In this document: positions 12,906-64,000 of the stretch, in pieces
How positions within the stretch are numbered: position 1 is the first letter of the stretch
Layout of the letters: every line of letters begins with the position of its first letter
Origin: Rubrivivax sp.
GTDB lineage: Bacteria; Pseudomonadota; Gammaproteobacteria; Burkholderiales; Burkholderiaceae_C
Reading direction: 5' to 3'
Assembly: GCA_024641945.1 (NCBI GenBank)
Contig: JAHECD010000007.1
Span: forward strand, 1 to 64,000
DNA: 64,000 nucleotides
The notes under the pieces: generated by a model
Databases searched by the model: none
Seen by the model: only the letters and a program-made list of their open reading frames with translations
What the model was told of the DNA's origin: nothing
Made by a program: the position numbers and the translations under genes

Positions 12906-12910
12906 CCCCG

Positions 12911-13663: not shown

Positions 13664-13995
13664 GCGCGCCGGGCAGTCCGGTGAGCGCCGACACCCCTTC
13701 CGCAGCACCGGGTGTGACGAGCGTCCCGCGCATCGGCCGCGGTTTCCGCCTGCAATGGGAAGAAGCGCAGGGCTGCCACGTGCTCTTGTACCCCGAGGGC
13801 ATGGTCAAGCTGAATCCGAGTGCGGGCGAGATCCTGCGCCGCTGCGACGGCGCCAAGACGCTGGGCCACATCGTCGGAGAACTCGAGGCCGCGTTCGGTG
13901 CCCAGGGACTCGAGCGCGATGTGCTCGGCTTCGCCGAAGTGGCGGCACAGCAGCGCTGGATCGAATGGGACGCGGGGGGCAACCGTGCCGGCTGA
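13660..13995 (+). CDS. pqqD: PqqD (PqqA-binding chaperone)
   Basis: [57 protein letters not shown]. Confidence 0.94.
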
Positions 13996-46452: not shown

Positions 46453-46454
46453 GC

Positions 46455-47027: not shown

Positions 47028-47048
47028 TTCCACATGGCGTGACCACGG

Positions 47049-47064
47049 CCCGTCATACGACGGG
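47049..47064. terminator. Candidate bidirectional hairpin between convergent rmlC and the UDP-sugar dehydrogenase
   Basis: CCCGTC-ATAC-GACGGG perfect inverted repeat. No U-tract, so rho-independent function is uncertain. Confidence 0.35.
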
Positions 47065-47092
47065 AACGCTCGCGTGACTCGGTGACCGCGAC

Positions 47093-48373
47093 CTAGAGGC
47101 GCCAGACCCTCAACCCGGTGGCGCGCAGGTCTTCTGCGCCAAAGGCGGCCTTGACGTCGACGAAGACGCCCGAGCGTGTCACCTTGCGGCACAGGTCCTC
47201 AGTGCCCAGCGCGCGGAACTGCCGGTGCGCCACGGCAGCCACGATCGCATCGGCCCGCGGCAGCTGCTCCCACGGCACAAGGTGCACGCCGTATTCGTGC
47301 AAGGCCTCGTCGGGATCGGCCTCCGGGTCATGCACGAAGACATCGGCGCCGTAGCTGCGCAACTCGTGGATGATGTCGACCACCTTGCTGTTGCGCAGGT
47401 CGGCGCAGTCTTCCTTGAAGGTCAGGCCGAGCACGTTGACCTTCGCGCCCTTGACATAGCTGCCAGCAGCGATCATGTGCTTGACCGTCTGCTCGGCAAT
47501 GAACTTGCCCATGCCGTCGTTGATGCGGCGCCCTGCCAGGATCACTTGCGGGTGATAGCCGAGCATTTCGGCCTTGTGGGTCAGGTAATACGGGTCCACG
47601 CCGATGCAATGCCCGCCGACGAGGCCAGGCTTGAACTTCAGGAAGTTCCACTTGGTGCCGGCCGCCTCGAGCACCTCGCTCGTATCGATGCCCACCTTGT
47701 CGAAGATGATCGCAAGCTCGTTCATCAGCGCGATGTTCAGGTCACGCTGCGTGTTTTCGATCACCTTGCAGGCCTCGGCCGCCTTGATGCTGCTGCAGCG
47801 ATGCACGCCCGGCTTCACGATGCGTTCGTACAACGCCGCCACCTTGTCGAGCGTCTGTGGCGAGTCGCCGGCGACGACCTTGATCACATTGGTCAGCATG
47901 TGCTCGCGGTCGCCTGGATTGATGCGCTCAGGGCTGTAGCCGACGTTGAAATCCTGGCGCCATTTCAGGCCGGAGACACGCTCGAGTTCCGGAATGCACA
48001 CCTCCTCGGTCGCGCCTGGATAGACAGTGGATTCATAGATCACCGTCGCACCCTTCTTCATGTGCGCGCCCGTGGCACGGCTGGCACCGATCAGCGGGCC
48101 GAAGTCGGGGATGTGCGCATCATCCACCGGTGTAGGCACGGCGATGATGATCATGTCGGCCTCGGCGAGCACCGTCGGGTCCGCGCTGTACTCGGCATGC
48201 ACGGCAAGTGCCATCTCGGCGTCGGGAATCTCGCGCGACGGGTCAGTGCCGGCCTGGCAGCGCGCCACCTTCGATTCAACGATATCGAAACCGATCGTCC
48301 TGCCCTGCTTGCCGAACTCGACGACGAGCGGCAGCCCGACGTAACCCAAACCCACCACTGCAACGACGGACAC
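47093..48373 (-). CDS. TviB/WbpO-type UDP-N-acetylhexosamine 6-dehydrogenase
   Basis: VAVVGLGYVGLPLVVEFGKQGRTIGFDI, YESTVYPGATEEVCIPELERVSGLK, GGHCIGVDPYYLTHKAEMLGYHPQVILAGRRIND. GTG start preceded by GGGGAG. Confidence 0.9.
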   Translation of the reverse strand: MSVVAVVGLGYVGLPLVVEFGKQGRTIGFDIVESKVARCQAGTDPSREIPDAEMALAVHAEYSADPTVLAEADMIIIAVPTPVDDAHIPDFGPLIGASRATGAHMKKGATVIYESTVYPGATEEVCIPELERVSGLKWRQDFNVGYSPERINPGDREHMLTNVIKVVAGDSPQTLDKVAALYERIVKPGVHRCSSIKAAEACKVIENTQRDLNIALMNELAIIFDKVGIDTSEVLEAAGTKWNFLKFKPGLVGGHCIGVDPYYLTHKAEMLGYHPQVILAGRRINDGMGKFIAEQTVKHMIAAGSYVKGAKVNVLGLTFKEDCADLRNSKVVDIIHELRSYGADVFVHDPEADPDEALHEYGVHLVPWEQLPRADAIVAAVAHRQFRALGTEDLCRKVTRSGVFVDVKAAFGAEDLRATGLRVWRL

Positions 48374-48442
48374 CGAAAGCTCCCCAGGAAACAAACGCTG
48401 TGTCGCAGCCCAGTGCACGCCGGCCTTCGCCGAGCGTGACTC

Positions 48443-49909
48443 TCAGGCCGTCGACGTATCTGTCTTGTTGCCGCCGAGCAGCGATGCCACGCGCTTCTTC
48501 GGGCGGATGTTCGGCGACAGCCCACCGCTGCGCACGGGGGCAGCGGGCACGGGCGGCTTGCCCGCATCCCATCCCGGCGAGCCCGTTCCGGACGGCTCGT
48601 AGGGCTTGTCGAAAAACGGGTCAGACGGCGTGCGCGCGCGAGACGGTGCCGCCGGTCGGGCCGGTGTCGGCCGCTCGTCGCGGTCCTCGAAATCGCGGCG
48701 CGGTCGACGCGGCGGACGCGAGTCCTCGATGTCGATGGGTTCGATCTCGATCTTGCGCTTGATCAGTTTCTCGATATCCGACACCAGGCGCGTGTCGTCG
48801 CGGTCCACCAGCGTCACCGCCAACCCGGATGCGCCGGCACGGCCCGTCCGGCCGATGCGGTGGACGTAATCCTCCGCGTTGAAGGGCACATCGAAATTGA
48901 AGACAGCAGGCAGGTCGGCAATGTCCAGGCCGCGCGCCGCCACGTCGGTGGCCACCAGCAGATCGACCTCGCCGGCCTTGAAAGCCGCCAGCGACTTCAA
49001 CCGCTCGTCCTGCGACTTGTCGCCGTGCAGTGCCGCGGTGCGCAAGCCGTCGCGTTCGAAAGAGCGCGCCAGCCGCGCAGCGCCGAGCTTGGAATTGACG
49101 AAGACGATCGCCTGCGAAAGCTCGCGGGACTTGAGCAGTTGGCGCACGACCTGCCGCTTGTCGTCGTCGGCCACGCTGTAGAACCGCTGTTCGACGGTGG
49201 AGGCCGTGGCGTTCGGGCGTGCAACCTCCACCAGCAGCGGGTCCTGCAGGTAACTCTGCGCCAGGCGCTTGATCTCGGGAGAAAACGTGGCCGAGAACAG
49301 GAGCGTCTGCCGCTGCTTGGGTAGATACGAGAGGATCCGCTGCAGGTCGGGCAGAAAGCCAATGTCGAGCATGCGATCGGCCTCGTCCAGGACCACGTAC
49401 TCCACCTGATTCAGAACACAGTTCTTCGCCTCGATATGGTCGAGCAGCCGGCCCGGCGTGGCGATCAGCACCTCGACACCGGTCTTGAGCACGGCCGTTT
49501 GGGGCTTCATGTCGATGCCCCCGAACACCACGGTCGACCGCAGCAGCGTGTGCTTGGCGTAGGTCTTGACGTTGTTGGCGACCTGATCGGCCAATTCGCG
49601 CGTGGGAGCAATCACCAGGGCGCGCACCGGATGCCGCGCCGGCGAGGCGCTTGCGGTCTCGTGACGCAGCATCTTCTGCAGCAACGGCAACGTGAATGCC
49701 GCCGTCTTGCCGGTGCCGGTCTGTGCCGCGCCCATGACGTCTCGGCCGTCGAGGACGATCGGGATCGCCTTGGCCTGGATCGGCGTCATCGCCGTGTAGC
49801 CGCTCTCGAGAACCGCGCGCAGAAGCTTGGGATCGAGAGCGAGGGTGTCGAAACGCTGCGGCACAGGGGCCGGGGCTTCAGGCTCGGAATGCAGAGGGTC
49901 TTGATTCAT
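48443..49909 (-). CDS. rhlE: DEAD-box RNA helicase, RhlE-like
   Basis: AAQTGTGKTAAFTLPLLQ, VLDEADRMLD, SATFS and HRIGRTGRAG motifs, plus a basic/Pro-rich tail. Confidence 0.93.
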   Translation of the reverse strand: MNQDPLHSEPEAPAPVPQRFDTLALDPKLLRAVLESGYTAMTPIQAKAIPIVLDGRDVMGAAQTGTGKTAAFTLPLLQKMLRHETASASPARHPVRALVIAPTRELADQVANNVKTYAKHTLLRSTVVFGGIDMKPQTAVLKTGVEVLIATPGRLLDHIEAKNCVLNQVEYVVLDEADRMLDIGFLPDLQRILSYLPKQRQTLLFSATFSPEIKRLAQSYLQDPLLVEVARPNATASTVEQRFYSVADDDKRQVVRQLLKSRELSQAIVFVNSKLGAARLARSFERDGLRTAALHGDKSQDERLKSLAAFKAGEVDLLVATDVAARGLDIADLPAVFNFDVPFNAEDYVHRIGRTGRAGASGLAVTLVDRDDTRLVSDIEKLIKRKIEIEPIDIEDSRPPRRPRRDFEDRDERPTPARPAAPSRARTPSDPFFDKPYEPSGTGSPGWDAGKPPVPAAPVRSGGLSPNIRPKKRVASLLGGNKTDTSTA

Positions 49910-49939
49910 TCAACCGCGAATTATCCCTTACCCAGGCCA

Positions 49940-51022
49940 TTAGCGTCGATAAATGAGCCAGCGCGGTGTCTTGAATCGCACGATCCGCCAATACATGGCC
50001 ACGTAAGTCACCGCGAACAAGGCGACGAAACCCATCAACACGCCGGTCTGGTTCCAGAACGATACGGCGGGAACGACCGAGAACATGCAAAGCAGCCAAA
50101 GATAAGGCGAGGTCATCGAATTTCGCCGCGTCAGTGCCTTCGCCGTGCGGTTGCCGACGGCCCACCGCATCAGGCGGCGGTACACCAATGAATGCAGATG
50201 GATGCCATCCGGCATGCTTGGGGGCAAAGCTCGAATGAAGCGCCGTCGATAGATCGAGAAGACCGTTTCGAAGATCGGGTAGATGCACACCAGCAGCGGA
50301 AACATCGGCGAGACCTGCGGATTGCGGTGCAGCAGGAGGATGGCGACCTCGGCCACGTAGAAACCCACGAAATAGGCGCCGCCGTCGCCGAGAAAGATCA
50401 GCCCTGCCGGAAAGTTCCAGACGAAGAATCCAAGCACGGCGCCGATGCCCCCGAGCGCCAGAGACAACACGAGGGTGTCGCCGACCTGGGCGCCGACATA
50501 CGCCAGGCTGGCCAGGATCAGCACGGCGCACATCGACGCAAGGCCGTTGAACCCGTCGATGATGTTCACGGAATTGGCGACCCCGGCCACCGCGAAAACG
50601 GTCAGCGCAATGGCGCCTGCGCGGTGGGAGACCAACCAGTCGAGCCCGGGGAGGGCGGTGTGTTCGATCACGCCATCCACCAGCCACGCCGCCAGCAGCG
50701 CCGACAGTGCCGTGGCCGCCAGCCGGCGTCTCGGGCTGATGGCCTTTGTCAAGTCTTCATGAACACCCACGAGGAAGGCAGGAAGGCCACAGGCGACCAG
50801 CAGACCCGCGTCGCCACCCACCGCGGGTGTCCACCACCAAAGACCCAGAATCCCCGCAGCCATGCCCCCAAAGATGCCGACACCCCCGACCCGTGGCACA
50901 GGCATGGCGTGAAATTTTTGCGGTCCCGAAGTGTCGAAATCCAGCGCACCGGCCTTCGACGACCGCACGAGCAGCAGTGTGAGGGCCAGCGAGACGACGA
51001 ATGTGGCCATCAACAGCAGCAT
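49940..51022 (-). CDS. WecA/MraY-like glycosyltransferase family 4 (polyprenyl-phosphate GlcNAc/QuiNAc-1-P transferase)
   Basis: Multi-TM protein with VPRVGGVGIFGGMAAG, VNIIDGFNGLASM, FLGDGGAYFVGFY. Confidence 0.9.
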   Translation of the reverse strand: MLLLMATFVVSLALTLLLVRSSKAGALDFDTSGPQKFHAMPVPRVGGVGIFGGMAAGILGLWWWTPAVGGDAGLLVACGLPAFLVGVHEDLTKAISPRRRLAATALSALLAAWLVDGVIEHTALPGLDWLVSHRAGAIALTVFAVAGVANSVNIIDGFNGLASMCAVLILASLAYVGAQVGDTLVLSLALGGIGAVLGFFVWNFPAGLIFLGDGGAYFVGFYVAEVAILLLHRNPQVSPMFPLLVCIYPIFETVFSIYRRRFIRALPPSMPDGIHLHSLVYRRLMRWAVGNRTAKALTRRNSMTSPYLWLLCMFSVVPAVSFWNQTGVLMGFVALFAVTYVAMYWRIVRFKTPRWLIYRR

Positions 51023-51170
51023 CGGACGATTGTATTTGCCGCGGCCGGGACAGCAGCTGCATGGGGCTGGCGAATCCGCGTGCCCAGCTAGAATGCTGGT
51101 TTTCCAAATCCGTGCGCAAAAGCCGGCGCTGACAGGTCCGATCCCTGGCTCGCGGCGAGCCCAACTCCCG

Positions 51171-53084
51171 ATGCCTTCGAGTCTTGCTGGCAAGACCCTG
51201 CGCTACCTGCGCCGGGCCACCTTGACGGTCCTGTATCCGCTGTTCGCACTGTTTGCGCTGCATGGCATCGCGATGGCGCAGGAAGTGGGCTTGACACCCG
51301 ACGCTTCGTCGCCGACGGGGCCCATCAGATTGCGCCAGCCGGTGCAGGCGCCCGCCGATTCAGCGAAGTCGGCATCGCAGCGCACGTCCACATCGCCAGG
51401 ATCGGTCAGCGCGACCGATTCGGCCCTGCGTCAAGACTTTGGGACCGACGGCCGCGCCCCGTACCAGCCCGGCGAATTCGAGAAGTTCGTTCAGCGCCAG
51501 ACAGGCACGCTCAAGGTACAGCGCTTTGGTGCGGACCTTGTTGCGCGCTATGCCGACCCTGCGGCGGCCGATTCACCAGCCCTCGTGCCGCCTGAATACA
51601 TCATTGCGCCGGGCGACGAGATCGTCGTCACGCTGTGGGGCTCGGTGGATGCCGATTTGCGCCTGGTCGTCGACCGCGCCGGCCGCATCAGTATTCCGCG
51701 CGTGGGCACCGTGCAGGTGGCCGGCGTACGCCAGGCCGAACTCGCCGCGACGATCGGCCGCCGCGTGGGCCTCGTCTTCAAGAACTACGAGATGAACGTA
51801 TCGGTCGGTGCACTGCGCGGCATCCGGGTCTTTGTCACCGGATTCGTGGGCAACCCCGGTGCATATACGGTCAACAGCCTGTCCACCATCACGGCAGCGT
51901 TGTTCCGAGCCGGCGGTCCTTCGTCGGCAGGGAGCTTCCGTCGCATCGAACTGAGGCGCGGCGCCCAGATGATCTCGACGTTCGACCTGTACGACTTCCT
52001 GCTCAAGGGCGACCGCTCCGGCGACCGCCTGCTGCAGGCGGGCGACGTCATTCATGTGTTGCCGGTCGGCGACGAAGTCGCGGTGATCGGCAGCGTGAAC
52101 AAGCCGGCCGTGATCGAGCTCAAGACGGGAGAGACCGTGGCCGATGCCCTGCGCGGCGTGGGAGGCTTCACGGCCGTGGCCGACCGGACGCGCCTGTCGG
52201 TCGAACGCCTTTCGGACCGCAACTCGCAGCGGGTGCGCGAGCTCGCGCTGCCGGCCGATCTGTCCACGTCCCTCAGCCATGGTGACGTGCTTCGCGCCTT
52301 CAGCGCGGTCGACGCGTTGCTGCCGATGCAGGTGCAGAACAAGCGTGTGCGTGTCGAGGGTGAAGTGGCCCGGCCGGGCGACTACGTGCTGCCACCCAGC
52401 AGCACGTTGGCGGATGCGTTGGCCGCAGCCGGTGGCCTGACGCAGGCCGCCTTTGTCTATGGCACGGAGTTCACGCGCGAGAGTGTCCGCATCACGCAAC
52501 AGGAAAACTACGAGCGCGCGCTGCGTGACCTGGAATCCGACATTTCGCGCCAGGCGTCGCAACGCGCCGGCAGTGCCGACGAGGCCGCTTCGACGACCAC
52601 CAGGCTCATCGATCGGCTGCGTGCGGTCAAGCCGACCGGGCGCATCGTTCTGCAGGTGGCGACCGACGCGCGCGAACTGCCGCCGCTGGCCCTCGAAGAG
52701 GGTGACCGCGTCTATATCCCGCCGAGGCCCACCACCGTGGGTGTTTTCGGCAGCGTCTTCAACGGCGGCAGCTATCTGTATGGCGGCGAGCGCTCGGTGA
52801 GCGATTACCTCAGCCTTGCGGGTGGGCCCACACGCGGCGCGGATCAGGAAAGCACGTTCGTCGTGCGTGCCAACGGAACCGTCGTGAGCAGCCGTCAGGG
52901 AACGTCCGGCAGCTGGTTGGCCAGCAAGAGCCCGTTCGAAGGCCTGCGCGCACAGGCCGGCGACACGATCTTCGTACCGGAGGAGATCGACAGAAGCACC
53001 TTCACGCAGAAGGCGAAGGACTGGACGCAAATCTTCTACCAGTTCGCGCTCGGCATCGCGGGGTTGAGGGCTGTCGGCCTATGA
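51171..53084 (+). CDS. Polysaccharide export outer-membrane protein (Wza-like, SLBB domains)
   Basis: EYIIAPGDEIVVTLWGSVDADLRLVVDRAGRISIPRVGTVQVAGV, several SLBB-like repeats, N-terminal signal sequence. Confidence 0.9.
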   Translation: MPSSLAGKTLRYLRRATLTVLYPLFALFALHGIAMAQEVGLTPDASSPTGPIRLRQPVQAPADSAKSASQRTSTSPGSVSATDSALRQDFGTDGRAPYQPGEFEKFVQRQTGTLKVQRFGADLVARYADPAAADSPALVPPEYIIAPGDEIVVTLWGSVDADLRLVVDRAGRISIPRVGTVQVAGVRQAELAATIGRRVGLVFKNYEMNVSVGALRGIRVFVTGFVGNPGAYTVNSLSTITAALFRAGGPSSAGSFRRIELRRGAQMISTFDLYDFLLKGDRSGDRLLQAGDVIHVLPVGDEVAVIGSVNKPAVIELKTGETVADALRGVGGFTAVADRTRLSVERLSDRNSQRVRELALPADLSTSLSHGDVLRAFSAVDALLPMQVQNKRVRVEGEVARPGDYVLPPSSTLADALAAAGGLTQAAFVYGTEFTRESVRITQQENYERALRDLESDISRQASQRAGSADEAASTTTRLIDRLRAVKPTGRIVLQVATDARELPPLALEEGDRVYIPPRPTTVGVFGSVFNGGSYLYGGERSVSDYLSLAGGPTRGADQESTFVVRANGTVVSSRQGTSGSWLASKSPFEGLRAQAGDTIFVPEEIDRSTFTQKAKDWTQIFYQFALGIAGLRAVGL

Positions 53085-54253
53085 CCGGGCCGAATAGCGC
53101 CACGCTGTCGGCTGAAAGTGCCAACGGCGACGACGGCGACAACCTGTCGGTCTTCGACCTTCTGTTGCCGCTGGCCGAGCACGTTCGGCTGTTGATCGTG
53201 GCCCCGCTGTTGATCGGCCTCGTCGCGTTGGGCGTGGCCTATCTGCTGCCGCCGACGTACACCGCACGGGCCACGTTCCTGACGCCGCAGCCGCAGAACT
53301 CTGCCGCATCGGCGCTCGCATCGCTCGGCCCGCTTGCCGGCATCGCAGGCAATGCCGTCGGCGTGCGCACCGCCGCCGATCAATATGTGTCGCTGATGCA
53401 GAGCGCCAATATCGGCGACCGCATCATCGACCGTTTCAAGCTCATGACCGTGTACGACGTGCCGCTGCGCACGGACGCCCGGCGCAGGCTCACGCAGTCT
53501 GCGCGCATCGCCCTGGGCAAGAAGGACGGGCTGGTCATGGTCGAGATCGACGACGCCGACCCCCAGCGTGCGGCCGACATGGCCAACGCGCACATCGAAG
53601 AGCTGCGCCGCCTGACCGCGTCGCTGGCAGTCACCGAGGCGCAGCAGCGCCGCATCTTCTTCGAGGCCCAGCTCAAACAGACGCGCGACAACCTCGCGCA
53701 GGCGCAGGAGTCGCTGCAATCGAGCGGGTTCACCCAGGGCGCACTGCGCGCCGAGCCGCGTGCCGCCGCCGAGTCTTATGCGCGGCTGCGGGCCGAGGCC
53801 ACCGCCACCGAAGTTCGCCTGCAGGCTTTACGAGGTGCGCTGTCCGACAGCACGCCGGAAGTCAAGGCCGAGCTGGCCACGCTGGGCGCCCTGCGCGCGC
53901 AATTGGCCCGGGCCGAACAAGGCAACGACGCCGCGTCCGGCCCCGGCTACGTGGGCAAGTACCGCGAGTTCAAGTACCAGGAGACGCTGTTCGAGCTGTT
54001 CGCGCGTCAGTACGAGCTCGCACGCGTGGACGAAAGCCGGGACGGTACCTTGATCCAGGTGGTCGACGCAGCGACACCCCCCGAGCGCAAGACGGGCCCG
54101 AAGCGGGGAATCATTGCGATCGTCGCCACCGTGGCAGCGTTCTTCGCCGTGCTCCTGTTCGTCGTCGTGCGCGACCTCTGGCGCAACCACCTCGTGCGCG
54201 AGCTGGCCGCTGCGCGCTTGCGCCGTCTGAAAGCCGCGGCGCCTGCCCTCTGA
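53081..54253 (+). CDS. Wzz/chain-length determinant-type protein
   Basis: N-terminal TM, YTARATFLTPQPQ, coiled coil, C-terminal TM with ATPPERKTGPKRGIIAIVATVAAFFAVLLFVVVRDL. No Walker kinase domain. Confidence 0.87.
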   Translation: MTGPNSATLSAESANGDDGDNLSVFDLLLPLAEHVRLLIVAPLLIGLVALGVAYLLPPTYTARATFLTPQPQNSAASALASLGPLAGIAGNAVGVRTAADQYVSLMQSANIGDRIIDRFKLMTVYDVPLRTDARRRLTQSARIALGKKDGLVMVEIDDADPQRAADMANAHIEELRRLTASLAVTEAQQRRIFFEAQLKQTRDNLAQAQESLQSSGFTQGALRAEPRAAAESYARLRAEATATEVRLQALRGALSDSTPEVKAELATLGALRAQLARAEQGNDAASGPGYVGKYREFKYQETLFELFARQYELARVDESRDGTLIQVVDAATPPERKTGPKRGIIAIVATVAAFFAVLLFVVVRDLWRNHLVRELAAARLRRLKAAAPAL

Positions 54254-54324: not shown

Positions 54325-55335
54325 ATGCTCAACGACCTCTCCATTCTCATCACCGGCGGCACCGGCTCCTTCGGCAAGGCTTTCGTGCGCACGCTGCTGG
54401 CCCGCTATCCGGGCATCCGCCGTCTCGTGATCTATTCGCGCGACGAGCTCAAGCAGTACGAGATGGCGCAGGTCTTTTCCGAGCGCGAGCATCCGGGCAT
54501 CCGCTATTTCATCGGCGACATCCGCGACGAGGCGCGCCTTCGGCGCGCGCTCGAAGGCATCGATGTCGTCATCCATGCCGCGGCCCTGAAGCAGGTGCCG
54601 GCGGCGGAATACAACCCGTTCGAGTGCATCAAGACCAACGTGCTGGGGGCGCAGAACCTGATCGAGGCCTGCCTGGACAGCAAGGTGCAGCGCGTCGTCG
54701 CGCTGTCCACCGACAAGGCCGCGGCACCGATCAACCTGTATGGCGCCACCAAGCTTTGTTCCGACAAGCTCTTCGTCGCCGCCAACAACATCCAGGGCAG
54801 CCGCGGCATCCGCTTCAGTGTCGTGCGCTACGGCAACGTGATGGGCAGCCGCGGCTCGGTGATCCCGTTCTTCCTCGAACGCCGCAAGACCGGCGTGCTG
54901 CCGATCACCGACCCGCGCATGACGCGTTTCAACATCTCGCTGCAGGAAGGCGTCGACATGGTGCTTTGGTCGATCGAGCACGCACTCGGCGGCGAGGTGC
55001 TGGTACCGAAGATCCCGTCCTACCGCATCACCGACGTGGCCACCGCCATTGCGCCCGAGTGCCGGCAAGAGGTGGTGGGCATCCGCCCGGGCGAGAAGAT
55101 CCACGAGGAGATGATCACCGCGAGCGACAGCTTCAATACCGTGGACATGGGCCGCTATTACGCGATCCTGCCGTCGGCAGCCGCCTACACGATCGAGGAG
55201 TTCTGCCAGCGCCGCGGCGCCCGTCTCGTCGAGCCGGGCTTCTGCTACGACAGCGGCAGCAACGCCGACTTCCTGACCGTGGCGCAACTCAAGTCGCTGA
55301 TCGACGCACACGTGGTCAACCCGAACGTCGACTGA
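54325..55335 (+). CDS. pseB: UDP-N-acetylglucosamine 4,6-dehydratase (inverting)
   Basis: MLNDLSILITGGTGSFGKAFVRTLLARYPGIRRLVIYSRDELKQYEMAQVF and ALSTDKAAAPINLYGATKLCSDKLFVAAN. Confidence 0.96.
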   Translation: MLNDLSILITGGTGSFGKAFVRTLLARYPGIRRLVIYSRDELKQYEMAQVFSEREHPGIRYFIGDIRDEARLRRALEGIDVVIHAAALKQVPAAEYNPFECIKTNVLGAQNLIEACLDSKVQRVVALSTDKAAAPINLYGATKLCSDKLFVAANNIQGSRGIRFSVVRYGNVMGSRGSVIPFFLERRKTGVLPITDPRMTRFNISLQEGVDMVLWSIEHALGGEVLVPKIPSYRITDVATAIAPECRQEVVGIRPGEKIHEEMITASDSFNTVDMGRYYAILPSAAAYTIEEFCQRRGARLVEPGFCYDSGSNADFLTVAQLKSLIDAHVVNPNVD

Positions 55336-55347
55336 CCCTTCGGCGCC

Positions 55348-56508
55348 ATGACCTTCATCCCGTACAGCTGCCAGAACATCGACGAGGACGACATCGCCGC
55401 CGTCACCGCGGTGCTGCGCTCCGAGTACCTCACGCAGGGGCCCGCGATCCCGGCATTCGAGACAGCGTTTGCCGAGCGCCACGCGGCCGGCCACGCCGTG
55501 GCCGTGTCGAATGCGACTGCCGGGTTGCACATCGCCTGCCTCGCCCTCGGCGTGGGGCCTGACAGCATCGTCTGGACCAGCCCGAACAGCTTCCTCGCGT
55601 CGGCCAACTGTGCGCGCTACTGCGGGGCGACGGTCGATTTCGTCGACATCGACCCGGTCACACGCAACCTGTCGCTGGCGGCACTGCGCGCCAAGCTCGA
55701 GCGCGCCGAGACCGCCGGCACACTGCCGAAGGTGCTGATCCCGGTCGACTTTGCCGGCCTGCCGTGCGACCTGCGCGAGATGCGTGCGCTGGCCGACCGT
55801 TATGGCTTCGCGATCCTCGAGGACGCGTCGCACGCCACCGGTGCCAGCTACCTCGGCCGGCCCGTGGGCAGCGCGTGGGCGGATGCCTGCGTCTTCAGCT
55901 TCCACGCCGTGAAGATCGTCACCACGGCCGAGGGTGGCATCGTCACCACGCGCGACCCGGCGCTGGCCAGGAAGCTGCGCCTGCTGCGTTCGCATGGCAT
56001 GACACGCGATGCCGCAGACCTGCAAGGCCCGGTCGAAGGCCCCTGGGTCTACGAGCAGGTCGAGCTCGGCTTCAACTATCGCATCACCGACCTGCAGGCC
56101 GCGCTCGGCCTGTCGCAGCTGCGGCGCATGGATGCCATGCACGATCGCCGCGTCGCGCTGGCCGGCCGCTACGACCAGTTGCTCGCCGGCCTGCCGCTGC
56201 GCCTGCCGGCGCGTGCCTCCGACCGCGATTCGTCGTGGCACCTGTATGCCGTCGAGGTCGACGAAACAAGAACGCCGGTCACGCGGGCCGCTGTATTCGC
56301 CGCGCTGCGCGCCGCGAATATCGGTGTCAACGTCCACTACATCCCGATCCACACCCAGCCGTACTACCAGCGGCTGGGTTTCCGGCGCGGCGACTTCCCG
56401 GCTGCCGAGGCGTATTACGCCCGCGCGCTGTCGCTGCCGCTGTTCCCGGCACTGACCGAGGCGCAGCAGCAGGTCGTGGCCGATACGCTGCGCACGGCGC
56501 TGGCCTGA
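55348..56508 (+). CDS. pseC: UDP-4-amino-4,6-dideoxy-N-acetyl-beta-L-altrosamine transaminase
   Basis: FIPYSCQNIDEDDIAAVTAVLRSEYLTQGPAIPAFE, EDASHATGASYLGRPVGSAWADACVFSFHAVKIVTTAEGGIV. Confidence 0.95.
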   Translation: MTFIPYSCQNIDEDDIAAVTAVLRSEYLTQGPAIPAFETAFAERHAAGHAVAVSNATAGLHIACLALGVGPDSIVWTSPNSFLASANCARYCGATVDFVDIDPVTRNLSLAALRAKLERAETAGTLPKVLIPVDFAGLPCDLREMRALADRYGFAILEDASHATGASYLGRPVGSAWADACVFSFHAVKIVTTAEGGIVTTRDPALARKLRLLRSHGMTRDAADLQGPVEGPWVYEQVELGFNYRITDLQAALGLSQLRRMDAMHDRRVALAGRYDQLLAGLPLRLPARASDRDSSWHLYAVEVDETRTPVTRAAVFAALRAANIGVNVHYIPIHTQPYYQRLGFRRGDFPAAEAYYARALSLPLFPALTEAQQQVVADTLRTALA

Positions 56509-56511
56509 CCG

Positions 56512-57204
56512 ATGAAGATCGCCGTCATCCCCGCCCGCGGCGGCAGCAAGCGCATCCCGCGCAAGAACATCCGCGACTTCGCCGGCCGGCCGATGATCGC
56601 GTATGCCATCGGCGCAGCGCGTGAAAGCGGGCTGTTCGACCACGTGATCGTCTCGACCGACGACGACGAGATCGCGCAGATCGCCAAGTCGCACGGCGCC
56701 GAAGTGCCGTTCGCGCGCCCGCCCGAACTGGCCGACGACCACACCCCGACGGTGCCGGTGATCGTGCATGCGATCCAGGCCTGCCGCGCACTCGGATGGG
56801 CAGCGAGCCATGTGTGCTGCATTTATCCGGGCGTGCCGCTGATCCGCGCCGAAGACATCGCGGCCGCGCTGTCGCTGCTCGACGAGGCCGGCGCCGCAGG
56901 CTACACCTTCCCCGTGACGCCGTTCCCGTCGGCGATCCAGCGCGCCTTGCGTCGCGGAGCGGACGGCCGCGTCGAGCCGTTCCATCCGCAATACGTCAAC
57001 ACGCGCACGCAGGACCTCGAGCCGGCCTTCCACGACGCTGGCCAGTTCTACTGGGGTGCCGCCGACACCTGGCTCGCCGGTCTGTCGATCCATGCCCACG
57101 GCCGGACCATCGTGCTGCCCGAGTGGCGCGTGGTCGACATCGACACGCCCGCCGACTGGGAGCGCGCCGAGGCAATGTTCCACGCCTTGAAGGGCCGCCA
57201 TTGA
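56512..57204 (+). CDS. pseF: Pseudaminic acid cytidylyltransferase
   Basis: MKIAVIPARGGSKRIPRKNIRDFAGRPMIAYAI, SLLDEAGAAGYTFPVTPFPSAIQRAL. Confidence 0.94.
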   Translation: MKIAVIPARGGSKRIPRKNIRDFAGRPMIAYAIGAARESGLFDHVIVSTDDDEIAQIAKSHGAEVPFARPPELADDHTPTVPVIVHAIQACRALGWAASHVCCIYPGVPLIRAEDIAAALSLLDEAGAAGYTFPVTPFPSAIQRALRRGADGRVEPFHPQYVNTRTQDLEPAFHDAGQFYWGAADTWLAGLSIHAHGRTIVLPEWRVVDIDTPADWERAEAMFHALKGRH

Positions 57205-57206: not shown

Positions 57207-58769
57207 ATGAAGGCCGCGCTGCGTGTCGACGCCTCGCGAACCATCGGCACCGGGCACCTGCGCCGCTGCGGTGCGCTGGCGCACGCACTGCGCGACGCCG
57301 GCGTGCAGGTGCATTTTGTCGTCAGGGATCTCGGTATCGACGCCGCCGACTGGCTGCACGGAGAAGGCTTCGAGGCCCGTGTGCTGCCGGCCCCGCAGGC
57401 CGGTGCCCACGCGGCGGAAACATCCCGCAGCGTCCACGCCGCATGGGCCGGCGTCGATTCAGCGACCGACGCCGCTCAGACCGTGCAGTCCCTGCAAGGC
57501 CAGCAGATCGATTGGCTCGTGATCGACCACTACGCCTTCGACCAGGCGTGGCACGAACTTGTCGCCACGGCGCTCGGGTGCCGCATCGCGGTCATCGACG
57601 ACCTGGCGGACCGCGACCTTGCCGCCGCCATGCTCGTCGACCACAACGCACACACCGACCACCGGGCCAAGTACGGCACGCACCTGCCGGCCACTGCACG
57701 ATTGCTGGGCGGGCCGCGGTTCGCCTTGCTCGGCAACGCCTATGCCGGCGCACGCCGGTACGAGGTGCACGAACGCGTTCGCAGCATCGGCGTCTTCATG
57801 GGCGGCGTGGACGCCTGCAATGCCTCGGCGGCCATGTTGGCCGGCATCGAAACCGCCGGGTTCGACGGCGACGTCGAGGTCGTCACCACATCGGCCAACC
57901 CGCATCTCGACACGTTGCGCCGGGCCGTCTCCAGCCGCGCACGGACCACGCTCTCGGTCGACCTCGCCGACCTCACCGCCTTCTTCGCGCGCCACGACCT
58001 GCAGATCGGCGCCGGCGGCGGTGCCACCTGGGAGCGCTGCTGCATCGGCGCCCCGACGCTGGGCGTGGTCGTCGCCGACAACCAGCTCGCCGTCGTGCCG
58101 GCGCTCGTTGAACTGGGCGTGCTGGCGACGGCGCGGCCGCCGACGTCGCTCGATCCGGCCGTCCTCGCCATGGCGATCCGTGCCCTCGTGGACGTTGCAC
58201 CAAGAAGACACACGCTGGCGATGCGGTCGCGTGAGGTGGTCGACGGCCTCGGTGCGCGCCGCGTTGCGCTGTGCATGGCGGCGGACAACCTTGCGGTGCG
58301 GACGGCCCGCCTCGACGACGCCGCGATGCTGCACCGATGGCGCAACCATCCCGACACCCGCCGCGTCTCGCGCGACGCGCGCGAGATCGGGTTCACGGAA
58401 CACGAGCTCTGGCTGCGGCGCACGCTCGACGATCCCGCCCGCACGCTGCTCGTCGGCGAGGTCGGGCGCATCCCCGTCGGCGTGATCCGTTTCGACCGGA
58501 TCGACGACACCGCCGCAGAAGTCTCGCTCTACCTCGACCCGCAGCTGCACGGCCTGGGCCTCGGCGCGGCGCTGCTGCGTGCCGGCGAAGCGAGGATGCC
58601 CCCGCACCTGGCGCTGCACGCGGCGGTGCTCGATGGCAATGACCCTTCGGCGCGCCTGTTTGCCGGTGCGGGCTACACCTGCACGGCGCCCGGCACTTGG
58701 GTCAAGCCCGCCGCAGCCGCTACACCGTCGCCCGCGCCTTCCAGCCTCTCACCAAGCACCACCCCATGA
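57207..58769 (+). CDS. pseG: Fused PseG-type UDP-sugar hydrolase + C-terminal GNAT (PseH-like)
   Basis: N-terminal part: RVDASRTIGTGHLRRCGALAHALRDAGVQVHFVVRDL and DLQIGAGGGATWERCCIGAPTLGVVVADNQ (PseG). C-terminal part: VRTARLDDAAMLHRWRNHPDTRRVSRDAREIGFTEHELWLRRTLDD...LYLDPQLHGLGLGAALL (GNAT). Single uninterrupted 520-aa frame. Confidence 0.9.
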   Translation: MKAALRVDASRTIGTGHLRRCGALAHALRDAGVQVHFVVRDLGIDAADWLHGEGFEARVLPAPQAGAHAAETSRSVHAAWAGVDSATDAAQTVQSLQGQQIDWLVIDHYAFDQAWHELVATALGCRIAVIDDLADRDLAAAMLVDHNAHTDHRAKYGTHLPATARLLGGPRFALLGNAYAGARRYEVHERVRSIGVFMGGVDACNASAAMLAGIETAGFDGDVEVVTTSANPHLDTLRRAVSSRARTTLSVDLADLTAFFARHDLQIGAGGGATWERCCIGAPTLGVVVADNQLAVVPALVELGVLATARPPTSLDPAVLAMAIRALVDVAPRRHTLAMRSREVVDGLGARRVALCMAADNLAVRTARLDDAAMLHRWRNHPDTRRVSRDAREIGFTEHELWLRRTLDDPARTLLVGEVGRIPVGVIRFDRIDDTAAEVSLYLDPQLHGLGLGAALLRAGEARMPPHLALHAAVLDGNDPSARLFAGAGYTCTAPGTWVKPAAAATPSPAPSSLSPSTTP

Positions 58770-59812
58770 TCACGATCGGAAACCGCGAGGTCGGCGCGCA
58801 CACCCGCCCTTACCTCATCGCCGAGATGTCGGGCAACCACAACCAGTCGCTCGCGCGTGCGCTGGACATCGTGAGCGCCGCCGCGCGTGCCGGCGCCGAC
58901 GCGGTGAAGCTGCAGACCTACACCGCCGATACGATGACGCTGAACGTGCGCTCGGCCGGCTTCGTGATCGACGACCCCAAGAGCCTGTGGGCCGGGCGCC
59001 AGCTGTACGAGCTCTACCAGGAAGCGCACACGCCGTGGGAGTGGCACCGGCCCATCATCGAACACGCGGCCTCGCTCGGCCTGCACTGCTTCAGCACGCC
59101 GTTCGACGACACCGCCGTCGATTTCCTCGAGTCGCTCGGCGTGCCCGCCTACAAGGTGGCGTCGTTCGAGGCGACCGACCTGCCGCTGATCCGCAAGATT
59201 GCACGCACCGGCAAGCCGATGGTCATTTCGACCGGCATGGCGAGCCTGGGCGAGATCGACGAAGCGGTGCGCACCGCACACGAGGCCGGCAACTCGCAGA
59301 TCGTCCTGCTCAAGTGCACCAGCACCTACCCGGCGACGCCGGAAAACACCAACATCCTTACGATTCCGCACCTGCGCGAGGCGTTCGGCTGCGAGGTCGG
59401 CCTGTCCGACCACACGATGGGCTGCGGCGTCGCGGTGGGTGCCGTGGCGCTCGGTGCGGTGCTGGTCGAAAAGCACTTCACGCTGCGACGCGCCGACGGT
59501 GGTGTCGACAGCTCGTTTTCGCTGGAGCCCGAAGAACTCGCCACGCTGCGCACCGAGACCGAGCGTGCATGGCAGGCGCTCGGCAAGGTCACCTACGGCG
59601 GCACGAAGGCGGAAGACCAATCGCGTGCCTTCCGCCGTTCGCTCTACGTGGCCCGTGACGTGGCCGCGGGCGAGACGCTCACGCCGGAGAACCTGCGCAT
59701 CGTGCGGCCCGGCTTCGGGCTGCCGCCGAAGTTCTACGACGTGATGCTCGGCAAGCGCGTGAACCGCGCACTGCCGGCCGGCACGCCGCTGGGCTGGGAC
59801 CACCTCGCCTGA
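58766..59812 (+). CDS. pseI: Pseudaminic acid synthase
   Basis: RPYLIAEMSGNHNQSLARALDIVSAAARAGADAVKLQTYTADTMTLN, STGMASLGEIDEA, C-terminal SAF domain. ATGA overlap with the preceding gene. Confidence 0.96.
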   Translation: MITIGNREVGAHTRPYLIAEMSGNHNQSLARALDIVSAAARAGADAVKLQTYTADTMTLNVRSAGFVIDDPKSLWAGRQLYELYQEAHTPWEWHRPIIEHAASLGLHCFSTPFDDTAVDFLESLGVPAYKVASFEATDLPLIRKIARTGKPMVISTGMASLGEIDEAVRTAHEAGNSQIVLLKCTSTYPATPENTNILTIPHLREAFGCEVGLSDHTMGCGVAVGAVALGAVLVEKHFTLRRADGGVDSSFSLEPEELATLRTETERAWQALGKVTYGGTKAEDQSRAFRRSLYVARDVAAGETLTPENLRIVRPGFGLPPKFYDVMLGKRVNRALPAGTPLGWDHLA

Positions 59813-59819
59813 AGAACCT

Positions 59820-60830
59820 GTGGCCTTGCGCGTCCTCGTCATCGGCTGCGGCAACATCGCCGGCGGATTCGACGCCGGGCGGCCCGCCGACGCACGCCCG
59901 CTGACACACGCCGGTGCGTTTGCGCAGCATGCGGGCTTCCAGATGACCGCCTGTGTCGACCCCGACGACGCACGGCGCGCCGCCTTCCAGCAGCGCTGGT
60001 CGGTGCCGTTTGGAGCCGCCGATCTGGCGGCGCTCGGCGACGCCGCGGGCCGCTTCGACGTCGTCAGCATCTGCTCGCCGACGGCGATGCATGCCGCCCA
60101 TCTCGACGCCGCGCTGGCGCTGAAGCCGCGCTTGATCTTCTGCGAAAAGCCGGTCACGCCTTCGCTCGAGGAGACGGCCCGCTGGGTTGAGCGCTGCGCT
60201 GCCGCGGGCGTGCTGCTGGCGGTCAATCACACGCGGCGATGGGCGCCGGATGTCGTGCGCGTGGCTGCGGAGCTGCACGACGGTGTGCATGGCGCCGTGC
60301 GCTCGGTCGTCGGCACCTACAACAAGGGCGTGCTCAACAACGGCGGCCATCTGGTCGACCTGCTGCACCTGCTGCTCGGGCCCCTCGAACTGCAGGACGC
60401 GGGTGCGCCGGTGTGGGACCACTGGCCCGACGATCCCACGGTGCCGGCGCTGCTGCACAGCGCCAGCGGCGTGCCGGTGCACCTGAGCGTCGCGCACGCG
60501 GCCGACTACGCCTTCTTCGAAGTCCAGATCGTCACCGCTGCCGGCACGCTGACGATGGAAAACGGTGGCCAGCGCTGGCGTCGCCGGCGTGCGGTGGAGA
60601 GCGCCACCTTCAAGGGTTACCGCTCGCTCGACGACGGCGAATTCAGCGCCGGCGAATACGACCGCGCGATGACCTTGGCGGTGCAGAACCTGCACGCCGC
60701 GCTGACCGACGGCGCTGCACTCGCGAGCACGGGTGCCTCGGCGCTGCAGGCGCAGCGGCTGTGCGCCGCGATCCACCGCGCGGCGCTCGTCGACAATCCG
60801 CAGCAGACACCGACAGGAACCCCGAGATGA
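59820..60830 (+). CDS. Gfo/Idh/MocA-family oxidoreductase
   Basis: LRVLVIGCGNIAGGFDAG Rossmann motif, FCEKPVTPSLEETARWVERC (EKP). GTG start. Confidence 0.9.
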   Translation: MALRVLVIGCGNIAGGFDAGRPADARPLTHAGAFAQHAGFQMTACVDPDDARRAAFQQRWSVPFGAADLAALGDAAGRFDVVSICSPTAMHAAHLDAALALKPRLIFCEKPVTPSLEETARWVERCAAAGVLLAVNHTRRWAPDVVRVAAELHDGVHGAVRSVVGTYNKGVLNNGGHLVDLLHLLLGPLELQDAGAPVWDHWPDDPTVPALLHSASGVPVHLSVAHAADYAFFEVQIVTAAGTLTMENGGQRWRRRRAVESATFKGYRSLDDGEFSAGEYDRAMTLAVQNLHAALTDGAALASTGASALQAQRLCAAIHRAALVDNPQQTPTGTPR

Positions 60831-62125
60831 CGACCTCCAAGCTGGCGCTGCTGGGCGGCACGCCGACCATCACTTCTCCGCTCGAACCCTTCCGAAGCAT
60901 GGGCGAGGACGAAGTCCACGCCGCCGCCGCCGTGGTGCGCGGCGGCGTGCTGTCGGCCTACATCGGCGCCCCGGGTGACGGCTTCATGGGCGGGCCGCAC
61001 GTGCGCGATTTCGAGGCGCGCGCGGCGGCCTACTTCGGCGTCAAGCACGCGATCGCGGTCAACTCGTGGACCTCCGGTCTCGTGGCCGCCGTCGGCGCCA
61101 TCGGCGTCGAGCCGGGCGACGAGATCATCACGACGCCGTGGACGATGTCGGCCACCGCGATGGCGGTGCTGCACTGGAATGCGATTCCCGTCTTCGCGGA
61201 CATCGACCCGCAGACCTTCAACATCGATCCGGCCAGCGTCGAGCGGCTCATCACGCCGCGCACGCGCGCGATCCTGGCCGCCGACATCTTCGGCCAGTCG
61301 GCCGACATGCCGGCGCTGCGCGCGATCGCCGACCGCCATGGCCTGAAGCTGCTGTGCGACACCGCACAGGCGCCGGGCTCGCTGACAGGCTCGCTGACCG
61401 GCACGCGCTTCACCGGCACGCTGGCCGACATCGGCGGCTTCAGCCTCAACTACCACAAGCACATTCACTGCGGCGAGGGCGGCATCCTCGTGACCGACGA
61501 CGACCGCCTCGCTCGCCGGCTGTGCCTGATCCGCAATCACGCCGAATCGGTGATCGGCAGCGAAGAGCCTGCCGAACTGGCCAACATGATCGGCTTCAAC
61601 TTCCGCCTCGGCGAGATCGAGGCGGCGATCGCGTCGGTGCAACTCGGCAAGCTCGAGGCCCGGGTGCGCAGCCGCCAGCGCGCGGCCGCGCAGCTCGACG
61701 CGGGGCTTGCCGGCCTGCACGGCCTGCGCACACCGAAGGTCGTCGCGGACGGCACCCACGTCTACTACGTCTACGGCATGACCTTCGACCCGGCAACAGC
61801 CGGCGTGCCGCGCGCGAAGGTGGTCGAGGCCCTGCGCGCCGAAGGCGTGCCCGGCGTGATGGCCGGCTACCAGAACCTGCATCTGCTGCCGATGTTCCGC
61901 CACAAGATCGCATATGGAACTCAAGGCTTCCCGTGGACGTCGCCGTATTGCTCGAGCGATGTGACCTACGGCCCCGGCACGTGCCCGGTGGCCGAGGAAC
62001 TGCATGCCTCCACCTTCATCGGCCTGAGCCTGTGCCTGTGCGAGCTTCCGCCGCAGGACGTGGACCTGATGGTCACGGCGATCCGCAACGTGTGGTCGCA
62101 ACTCGACGCGCTGAAGGCTGCCTGA
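60827..62125 (+). CDS. DegT/DnrJ/EryC1/StrS family aminotransferase
   Basis: AVNSWTSGLVAAVGAIGVEPGDEIITTPWTMSATAMAVL, LCDTAQAPGS, FSLNYHKHIHCGEGGILVT (PLP Lys retained). Confidence 0.92.
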   Translation: MTTSKLALLGGTPTITSPLEPFRSMGEDEVHAAAAVVRGGVLSAYIGAPGDGFMGGPHVRDFEARAAAYFGVKHAIAVNSWTSGLVAAVGAIGVEPGDEIITTPWTMSATAMAVLHWNAIPVFADIDPQTFNIDPASVERLITPRTRAILAADIFGQSADMPALRAIADRHGLKLLCDTAQAPGSLTGSLTGTRFTGTLADIGGFSLNYHKHIHCGEGGILVTDDDRLARRLCLIRNHAESVIGSEEPAELANMIGFNFRLGEIEAAIASVQLGKLEARVRSRQRAAAQLDAGLAGLHGLRTPKVVADGTHVYYVYGMTFDPATAGVPRAKVVEALRAEGVPGVMAGYQNLHLLPMFRHKIAYGTQGFPWTSPYCSSDVTYGPGTCPVAEELHASTFIGLSLCLCELPPQDVDLMVTAIRNVWSQLDALKAA

Positions 62126-62135
62126 CGAGCCCCGC

Positions 62136-62708
62136 ATGACCGGCGCCGCATCCGCCCTCGACACGCCAACGATGTTGCCCGCCTTGCCCGTGCTGCAAGG
62201 ACAGCAGGTGCGGCTGCAGCCCTTCGTCGGCGACGACGTCACGCCGGCCTATATCGGCTGGCTCAATGACGCGGTGGTCGTGCGCTACAGCAACCAGCGC
62301 TTCCGCCGGCACGATGCGGCCAGTTGCAGGGCCTATCTCGCCACTTTCGCGGGCTCCGACAACGTCTTCGCAAGCATCCGGCGCGCCGAGGACGGCCTGG
62401 CCATCGGCACGATGACGGCCTACCGCTCGCGCCCCCACGGCACCGCGGACATCGGCGTCCTGCTCGGCGAGCGAGCAGCCTGGGGCCAGGGGATGGGCCA
62501 GGACGCCTGGGACACGATGATGGCGTGGCTCGCCGGCCAGCGAGGGTTACGCAAGCTCACCTGTGGAATGCTGGCGTGCAACCTGCCGATGCGCCGCGTC
62601 GCCGAGCGCTCGGGCATGCAGCTGGAGGCCACGCGACGGGCGCAGGAAATCGTCGACGGCGTGCCGCAGGACATCCTGTATTTCGCGAGATTCACCGATG
62701 CTGCTTGA
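62136..62708 (+). CDS. GNAT-family acetyltransferase
   Basis: VRLQPFVGDDVTPAYIGWLNDAVVVRYSNQRF...GVLLGERAAWGQGMGQDAWDTMMAWL. Confidence 0.88.
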   Translation: MTGAASALDTPTMLPALPVLQGQQVRLQPFVGDDVTPAYIGWLNDAVVVRYSNQRFRRHDAASCRAYLATFAGSDNVFASIRRAEDGLAIGTMTAYRSRPHGTADIGVLLGERAAWGQGMGQDAWDTMMAWLAGQRGLRKLTCGMLACNLPMRRVAERSGMQLEATRRAQEIVDGVPQDILYFARFTDAA

Positions 62709-63591
62709 ATTGCCGTCGCCGCTCGCGGTGGTGTGCCACGACGCCGGCGCCGCCAACCATGTGCAGGCCTGGCTGCAAGCCGACGGCGACGGCACGGATT
62801 GCCGCGTGCTCGTCGATGGCCCCGCGGCGCAGCTGTGGCGTCAGCGCCATCCACCGGGCCGCCTCGTCGCGTCGACGGACGAAGCGCTCGATGGTGCCGC
62901 CACGCTGCTCAGCGGCACCGGCTGGGCCAGCGACCTCGAGCACGACGCCCGGCGGATGGCCCGCGAACGCGGCATCCGCTCCATCGCCGTGATCGACCAC
63001 TGGGTCAACTACGCGATGCGCTTCGAGCGCCAGGGCCGCAACGTGCTGCCCGACGAGATCTGGGTCACCGACCCTGATGCGGCGGACGAAGCCCGGCGCT
63101 GCTTCCCGGGCGTCGTGGTGCGCGAGCAGCCCAACCTCTACCTGCAGGCACAGGTGGCCGGCATCGCGCCGGTGGCGCAGGCCGGGCCCGACCTGCTCGT
63201 CGTGCTCGAGCCGGCGCGCAGCCACTGGGGCCGCGATACCGCCGGCAGCGGAGAGTTCCAGGCGCTCGACTACCTGGGCGCGAACCTGCCTGCACTCGGG
63301 CTGCCTGGCGGCGCCGCGGTGCGGCTACGCCCGCACCCGTCCGACCCGCCAGGCAAGTACGACGCCTGGATCGCGGGCCATCGCGGCATCGGCGCGCGCC
63401 TGGACGAATCCGCTTCACTGGCCGAGGCCATTTCGCACTGCGCAAGCGTGGCAGGGTGCGAGTCGTATGCGCTCGTGGTCGCACTCGCTGCCGGTCGGCG
63501 CGTCGTCTGCACGCTGCCTCCCTGGGCGCCGGCCTGCCGACTGCCTCATGCCGGTCTGATCCATTTGAGCCAACTGGCCGACCCCCGATGA
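62698..63591 (+). CDS. Uncharacterised protein of the polysaccharide locus, possibly glycosyltransferase-like
   Basis: MLLELPSPLAVVCHDAGAANHVQAWLQADGDG...SIAVIDHWVNYAMRF...VRLRPHPSDPPGKYD. Overlaps the GNAT gene by 11 bp. Fold guess only. Confidence 0.6.
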   Translation: MLLELPSPLAVVCHDAGAANHVQAWLQADGDGTDCRVLVDGPAAQLWRQRHPPGRLVASTDEALDGAATLLSGTGWASDLEHDARRMARERGIRSIAVIDHWVNYAMRFERQGRNVLPDEIWVTDPDAADEARRCFPGVVVREQPNLYLQAQVAGIAPVAQAGPDLLVVLEPARSHWGRDTAGSGEFQALDYLGANLPALGLPGGAAVRLRPHPSDPPGKYDAWIAGHRGIGARLDESASLAEAISHCASVAGCESYALVVALAAGRRVVCTLPPWAPACRLPHAGLIHLSQLADPR

Positions 63592-64000
63592 AATACTGCT
63601 CGCGTTGCCTGCAGCCCGACACCCGCCCGAACACCGTCTTCACGTCGGCGGGCATCTGCCCGGCCTGTGACTACGTCGAGCGGCTCCAGCACGTCGACTG
63701 GCAGGAGCGCTACGAGATCCTGCAGGACCTGCTGACCCAGTTCCCGCGCCGGCCCGGCCAGGGCTTCGACTGCATCATCGGGGTCAGTGGTGGCAAGGAC
63801 AGCACGCGCCAGGCGCTGTGGGTGCGTGACAAGCTGGGCCTGAAACCGCTGCTCGCCTGTCTGAGCTATCCGCCCGAGCAGGTCACGCAGCGCGGGGTGG
63901 ACAACATCTCCAACCTGATCGAACTGGGCTTCGACGTCGTGCTGTCCGCGCCCGCGCCCGGCACGTGGCGCCGCCTGATGCGCGAATCCTTCCTGCGATA
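63588..64000 (+). CDS. N-acetyl sugar amidotransferase, PseA/WbpG-like (partial, runs off the right edge)
   Basis: MKYCSRCLQPDTRPNTVFTSAGICPACDY zinc-like Cys motif and FDCIIGVSGGKDSTRQALWVRDKLGL PP-loop (SGGKDS). Confidence 0.9.
   Translation, partial: MKYCSRCLQPDTRPNTVFTSAGICPACDYVERLQHVDWQERYEILQDLLTQFPRRPGQGFDCIIGVSGGKDSTRQALWVRDKLGLKPLLACLSYPPEQVTQRGVDNISNLIELGFDVVLSAPAPGTWRRLMRESFLR

Follow-up and report, generated by a model that had tools for sequence, protein, structure and literature searches.

A Rubrivivax genome (Rubrivivax sp., GCA_024641945.1) encodes an apparently complete pathway for pseudaminic acid (Pse), directly followed by eight genes that appear to form a tailoring cassette of two modules. 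The DNA analyzed, referred to here as the window, comprises positions 1-64,000 of contig JAHECD010000007.1. The first module consists of a Gfo/Idh oxidoreductase, a DegT aminotransferase, a GNAT acyltransferase and an unassigned open reading frame (ORF), here called unk; the second consists of a WbuX-type amidotransferase (AmidA), HisH, a divergent HisF and a second amidotransferase (AmidB). The set of Pse genes, the genes that make up each module and the extent to which the modules are conserved are read directly from the DNA. The same gene order recurs in dozens of genomes, and given this recurrence the arrangement is far beyond chance. The Pse pathway itself is already known; what the gene content adds is a widely conserved two-module tailoring cassette next to an ordinary Pse operon. 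Our working interpretation, to which we give slightly less than an even chance, is that the first module would aminate and acylate a nonulosonate and the second would form acetamidino groups on it.

A first description of this DNA, made from its letters alone (the sequence-only reading), had listed the genes from pseB to the first amidotransferase, and all of them were found, on the + strand and closely packed. Its boundaries need revision at both ends. The span that it gave, 57207-64000, starts downstream of pseB, pseC and pseF (54325-57204), and the tail that it counted as five genes has eight, since amidA extends as far as 64721 and hisH, the hisF-like gene and amidB come after it. The contig is 78469 bp long, in a genome of 5.0 Mb, and the end of the window falls within it; genes beyond the window were called from open frames and similarity.

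A conserved module that accompanies nonulosonate synthases

Module 1 is made up of gfo1 (59820-60830, GTG start; Gfo/Idh/MocA oxidoreductase, PF01408, 65 bits), degT (60827-62125; DegT/DnrJ/EryC1/StrS aminotransferase dependent on pyridoxal phosphate, PF01041, 285 bits), gnat2 (62136-62708; GNAT N-acyltransferase, PF13302, 61 bits) and unk (62698-63591, about 297 residues). The best solved relative of DegT is 8gyh (204 bits across residues 4-426), an entry for which no description was found in open-access papers; WbpE structures are also among the relatives. No specific equivalog cut-off in NCBIfam was reached by gfo1.

Related loci were gathered through unk alone, in a single scan by sequence pattern, the reach of which is limited to relatives of close or middling similarity. 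This answered the proposal of the sequence-only reading that the synteny of the tail be searched: the gene set recurs widely, in 74 loci from alpha-, beta- and gammaproteobacteria, delta-type bacteria, Chlorobiaceae, Verrucomicrobia and Cyanobacteria. Co-occurrence was counted over the 61 loci with at least 7 kb of upstream sequence. Both gfo1 and degT are present in 60 of them, so that unk, previously treated as a loose extra, is part of the trio's module. A gene of the NeuB family (nonulosonate synthases) occurs in 55 and gnat2 or a FemAB-like acyltransferase in 53. When the search was reversed in 301 genomes of the family, a close degT was found in four, and all four (4/4) also had unk. Four Rubrivivax-type loci have no NeuB within 10 kb, and in these NeuB was found elsewhere in the genome. 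Across several phyla the four genes stay grouped at 30-70% identity, a recurrence that argues for one joint function.

The synthases accompanied by module 1 are of two types, Pse-type and a non-Pse type (NeuB9), and a divergent copy in genome G659 stands with NeuB, NeuC-like and NeuA-like genes (the latter two read by eye). The loci of NeuB9 type mostly carry an RmlD-like reductase and lack PseC and PseG; judging from their genes, they perhaps specify a 7-hydroxy, 9-deoxy (fusaminic-like) nonulosonate. Such loci (L009:2403-10377, also L014, L026, L037, L051, L063, L082 and L086) usually contain PseB, and their NeuB9 is only about 30% identical to PseI. Flagellin-like genes adjoin 14 of the 61 loci, while other copies sit in capsule-type loci. 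In one locus, L010:8424-9434, a FemAB-like GNAT replaces gnat2 beside two flagellin-like genes; such substitution suggests that the acyl group is variable. A plasmid search with unk gave no match. The same search with DegT led to a divergent cassette in plasmid p6 of Azospirillum argentinense (L143:9417-21650), with a short NeuB, a FemAB-GNAT, a DegT that carries a fused domain resembling a methyltransferase by eye, an SpsF-Gfo-unknown trio and, in all, two SpsF-like cytidylyltransferases.

A cytidylyltransferase specific to the cassette was also found. It is SpsF-like, forms one clade (support 91/85) and lies beside gfo1 or unk in 11 loci; it is plainly extra in L073, where PseF is also present, and in G659, where it stands alongside the NeuA-like gene. 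By analogy, such an additional enzyme fits amination at the level of the ulosonic acid before activation with cytidine monophosphate (CMP), as in the Kdo8N pathway. As proof of a second CMP-sugar it is weaker than it first seemed, since several of the loci may depend on it as their main synthetase. Other PseF-type genomes tested lack it.

The unassigned protein

Family libraries gave little on unk: it belongs to no Pfam or NCBIfam family at E 0.001, library scans of 63 members returned stray matches only (e.g., PF07388 at E 0.03 in one member), and a PDB sequence search, with the single protein and as a profile, found nothing credible. Its AlphaFold model is of high quality (predicted local distance difference test score, pLDDT, 95.1; predicted template modeling score, pTM, 0.91), and Foldseek aligns it with GT-B enzymes at E of about 1e-5. 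Among the matches are LpxB, UDP-N-acetylglucosamine (UDP-GlcNAc; UDP, uridine diphosphate) 2-epimerases and PseG (PseG-UDP), and the third is a bacterial polysialyltransferase with cytidine diphosphate (CDP). In the 63 sequences an RPHPS motif stands out, in which His213 is invariant and Pro214 is conserved in at least 90%; the N-terminal motifs HDAG and DHWVNY..RF are peculiar to unk. A profile search of 399 genomes showed weak C-terminal contacts with the TIGR04396 and BFO_1060 families, through the RPHP region. On the strength of the model, unk is a GT-B-fold family without prior assignment, remotely related to transferases of the CMP-sugar type. PF07388 polysialyltransferases and TIGR04396/BFO_1060 proteins share with it the GT-B fold, an RxHP-like motif in the C-terminal half and weak profile contact, whereas unk is short, has N-terminal motifs of its own and reaches no family cut-off. 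We infer from the modeled fold that unk is a transferase of GT-B type, whose donor is more likely of the CMP type; action as a hydrolase or epimerase is less likely.

Paired amidotransferases that share HisH and a divergent HisF

Module 2 begins with amidA (63588-64000 in the window, to 64721 on the contig; TIGR03573, 265 bits, cut-off 203) and continues beyond the window with hisH (contig 64840-65454; TIGR01855, 172 bits, cut-off 105), the hisF-like gene (65447-66223) and amidB (66227-67474; TIGR03573, 311 bits, cut-off 203). The four genes are all-or-none: they occur together in 13 loci, and AmidA and AmidB are never found one without the other. AmidA and AmidB form two separate, well-supported clades, with the PP-loop SGGKDS kept in 14/14 AmidA sequences and altered in AmidB, in which Ala takes the place of the second Gly in 12/14 and Asn or Gly that of the Lys in 13/14. 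An independent search of the 399 genomes with AmidB added a single close relative (54%); it lies in G659, where hisH, hisF, amidA, gfo, degT and a relative of unk are again present.

The catalytic Cys and the His-Glu pair of HisH are invariant (14/14). Another contig of this genome encodes a second HisH, which shares 38% identity with that of the locus; the existence of this second copy makes it probable that the locus HisH is dedicated to the cassette and that the other serves histidine synthesis. The HisF-like protein scores 87 bits against WbuZ (cut-off 300) and 78 against AglZ/HisF2 (cut-off 310), neither equivalog cut-off being reached, and is by these scores a homologous but divergent subtype. 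The equivalent of Asp11 is T or V and that of Asp130 is L, V or I in 14/14 sequences; with the loss of both residues, which we take to be the cyclase aspartates (positions after T. maritima HisF), the protein is predicted to be cyclase-dead.

The presence of HisH and HisF partners supports an acetamidino-type tailoring step of a nonulosonate, which the sequence-only reading had attached to a single amidotransferase; that enzyme turns out to belong to a four-gene module with two paralogues. In loci of NeuB9 type the WbuX protein is often paired with a GatA-like amidase instead (L009:10374-12952; also L014, L015, L017, L020, L027, L037, L051, L063, L068 and L084), which may supply ammonia in place of HisH/HisF.

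The pseudaminic acid pathway

All five Pse genes named at the outset exceed their NCBIfam cut-offs: pseB (54325-55335; inverting UDP-GlcNAc 4,6-dehydratase, TIGR03589, 518 bits, cut-off 408), pseC (55348-56508; aminotransferase, TIGR03588, 519 bits, cut-off 424), pseF (56512-57204; CMP-pseudaminic acid synthetase, TIGR03584, 287 bits, cut-off 206), pseG-GNAT (57207-58769; UDP-sugar hydrolase with a PseH-like N-acetyltransferase, TIGR03590, 234 bits, cut-off 154, and GNAT Pfam matches) and pseI (58766-59812; pseudaminic acid synthase of the NeuB family with a SAF domain, TIGR03586, 492 bits, cut-off 340). The close packing continues into the cassette, and most junctions overlap or are a few bp apart: pseG-GNAT/pseI, gfo/degT and unk/amidA each overlap by 4 bp and gnat2/unk by 11 bp, with gaps of 7 bp between pseI and gfo1 and 10 bp between degT and gnat2. 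PseI is the sole NeuB-family match in the genome.

The PseG-GNAT protein is, as first described, a single open frame, of 520 residues, with PseG at residues 1-297 and GNAT at about 362-492. A single chain of 480-540 residues is found in 31 of 48 related loci, and in others, such as L012 and L052, PseG and GNAT are adjoining separate genes. The GNAT half scores 50 bits against the PseH model TIGR03585, below the cut-off of 93; the frequency of the fusion and the adjacency of the two genes elsewhere support its role as the PseH of the pathway. The gene content thus supports a complete CMP-Pse pathway, with CMP-Pse as predicted product. Beside the Pse genes of L012 (13788-15731) we also observed a single chain that joins an SpsF-like cytidylyltransferase to a glutamate-1-semialdehyde-aminotransferase-like domain.

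Proposed pathway and its alternatives

In the proposed pathway, PseB-C-H/G-I would yield pseudaminic acid. Gfo/Idh would then oxidize one of the free hydroxyls on the nonulosonate, with C8 as the likeliest site, DegT would transaminate the resulting ketone, and the GNAT (elsewhere the FemAB-like enzyme) would N-acylate the amine to give a triamino-type nonulosonate. Activation with CMP would fall to PseF here and to the dedicated SpsF-type cytidylyltransferase in other genomes, and unk, as a GT-B transferase, would use or otherwise handle the CMP-activated sugar. HisH would free ammonia from glutamine and the cyclase-dead HisF would pass it on, allowing AmidA, perhaps with its paralogue AmidB, to turn one or more N-acetyl groups into acetamidino groups. 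The position, the order of steps, the product, the acyl group and the number of acetamidino groups we infer at most. Module 1 is found with Pse-type, NeuB9-type and NeuB-NeuC-NeuA sets, and would therefore act on something that these backbones share; C8 was chosen because Pse has it in common with the other backbone that the cassette accompanies. A fuller version is unlikely as a whole: a new nonulosonate with an extra, N-acylated amino group at C8 and more than one acetamidino group, made with a heteromeric amidotransferase of two PP-loop paralogues that share HisH and a cyclase-dead HisF, and with unk as a new GT-B family.

Several observations weigh against tailoring of the nonulosonate by module 1. 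The assignment of C8 is a process of elimination, and known pairs of Gfo/Idh and DegT enzymes mostly make 3-amino hexoses. This genome lacks the cassette cytidylyltransferase, and only L073 and G659 clearly point to a second CMP-sugar. Global hhalign comparison of unk with KpsS-like and PseG alignments showed no relation, and its fold also resembles epimerases and the hydrolase PseG. In the Kdo8N pathway the oxidoreductase, KdnB, is an iron-dependent alcohol dehydrogenase, whereas that of the cassette is of the Gfo/Idh/MocA type (PF01408).

The best-surviving alternative, although somewhat unlikely in our estimate, is that the product of the trio is an amino sugar of its own, nucleotide-activated (a 3-acylamino hexose, as made by pairs of the GnnA/GnnB or WbpB-WbpE-WbpD type), with unk as its glycosyltransferase, and that the nonulosonate is altered solely by the amidotransferases. 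Besides being the usual 3-amino-sugar pair, the two enzymes have suggestive relatives: WbpE structures for DegT and, for gfo1, a weak match to the archaeal model of UDP-GlcNAc 3-dehydrogenase (NF040723, 38 bits, far from the cut-off of 450). The GT-B fold of unk and the TviB-type UDP-GlcNAc C6 dehydrogenase gene on the minus strand, 6 kb upstream of pseB, agree with it as well. Yet in 55 of the 61 loci the module is tied to nonulosonate synthases, and these represent more than one backbone; the acyltransferase is a GNAT or FemAB-like protein and not a hexapeptide-repeat enzyme, the conserved module showed no gene for a UDP-sugar dehydrogenase, and a UDP-sugar would need no cassette-specific cytidylyltransferase. 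The sequence-only reading had named both tailoring and a second amino sugar; tailoring is tentatively favored because the trio and unk are tied to synthase genes of two backbones.

Quite improbable is a route that builds a second precursor of nonulosonates at the level of nucleotide sugars, by which the trio would make a UDP-amino sugar, unk would hydrolyze or epimerize it and PseI would condense it. The Foldseek matches of unk to UDP-GlcNAc 2-epimerases and PseG-UDP are in its favor, as are the NeuB9-type loci, where, without PseG, some hydrolase is missing. In most Pse loci, however, unk coexists with PseG (PseG in 45 and unk in 61 of 61), its weak profile matches go to transferase families, and this genome has a single NeuB. 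That the genes are independent neighbors with no joint function, collected in a variable polysaccharide locus, is hardly credible: such loci are mosaic and the gene order does vary (unk precedes gfo in L066, L071, L073 and L074), but the four genes of module 1 stay together across phyla at the identities given above, and the four genes of module 2 occur as a full set or not at all (13 present, 0 with one of the two amidotransferases).

Comparison with known systems and significance

Of the six functions of the Pse pathway PseB-C-H-G-I-F of Campylobacter, Helicobacter and Caulobacter, five are encoded here over curated cut-offs and the sixth, PseH, probably by the GNAT half of the fusion; the difference is that PseG and the PseH-like GNAT form one chain and that the operon includes extra modules. 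For the tailoring proposed for module 1, a parallel exists in the Kdo8N pathway, where KdnA carries out the transamination step before CMP activation. Oxidation followed by DegT transamination of an ulosonic acid, by KdnB-KdnA, is the sequence proposed here. The Kdo8N transaminase 5k8b is not the closest relative of the locus DegT (138 bits, below 8gyh and others). In Shewanella, KdnB oxidizes the ulosonic acid before amination (PMC5125639).

PseA and PtmG of Campylobacter are known acetamidino synthases of the WbuX kind, and these systems (Campylobacter, Clostridium; PMC13317340), like WbpG-HisH-HisF cassettes, combine a WbuX-family amidotransferase and HisH and HisF partners with an adjoining nonulosonate pathway. 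Here, in contrast, a single HisH-HisF is common to both paralogous amidotransferases, the scores of HisF fall well short of the cut-offs for WbuZ and AglZ/HisF2, and the PP-loop of AmidB is altered. GnnA/GnnB, WbpB-WbpE-WbpD-WbpG and cluster B of Sphingomonas LM7 (PMC11340318), which are pathways of 3-amino-sugar type, likewise share a Gfo/Idh or MviM type dehydrogenase, a pyridoxal phosphate aminotransferase, an acetyltransferase and WbuX-HisF-HisH in one locus. The cassette differs from them in its nonulosonate synthases, its GNAT/FemAB acyltransferases and a GT-B protein without family.

To our knowledge, no biosynthetic genes are known or proposed for the 8-amino nonulosonate of Flexibacter maritimus. 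This sugar, an 8-amino-3,5,7,8,9-pentadeoxynonulosonic acid of the O-antigen (PMC3210612), is of the kind predicted here, an 8-amino, 5,7-di-N-acyl nonulosonate, except that no acetamidino group was reported in it. The cassette is thus a concrete candidate for the genes of an 8-amino nonulosonate, known from one O-antigen. As the sequence-only reading had anticipated, the final sugar may be undescribed: the tail genes matched no characterized pathway in the libraries and open-access papers searched, and in open-access papers (subscription journals lay outside the search) no text was found on triamino nonulosonates or on this gene set. The nonulosonates that decorate flagella, capsules and O-antigens influence how phages bind, how cells move and how hosts recognize them. 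A family-less GT-B protein gains a context here, and the paired amidotransferases, together with the possible GatA-like ammonia source, could help glycan prediction from genomes.

Genomic surroundings

The genes on both sides point to a surface polysaccharide locus, linked to capsule or exopolysaccharide. Upstream of pseB (window 43584-54253) are dTDP-rhamnose-type (rml; dTDP, deoxythymidine diphosphate) genes and EpsE/Wza-like and chain-length proteins, in addition to the TviB-like gene. Downstream of amidB come a fatty-acid-hydroxylase-like protein, two FG-GAP-repeat-like proteins (by eye; contig 68421-71521), a zinc dehydrogenase and a second Gfo/Idh, and farther on a hexapeptide transferase and dioxygenase-like (by eye), KpsS-like and flippase-like (by eye) proteins, so that the region beyond 64000, where the sequence-only reading had proposed looking for a flippase, polymerase or flagellin genes, contains capsule-type genes and a flippase-like protein. 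Elsewhere in the window (11985-15202), four genes resemble pqqB, pqqC, pqqD and pqqE by eye.

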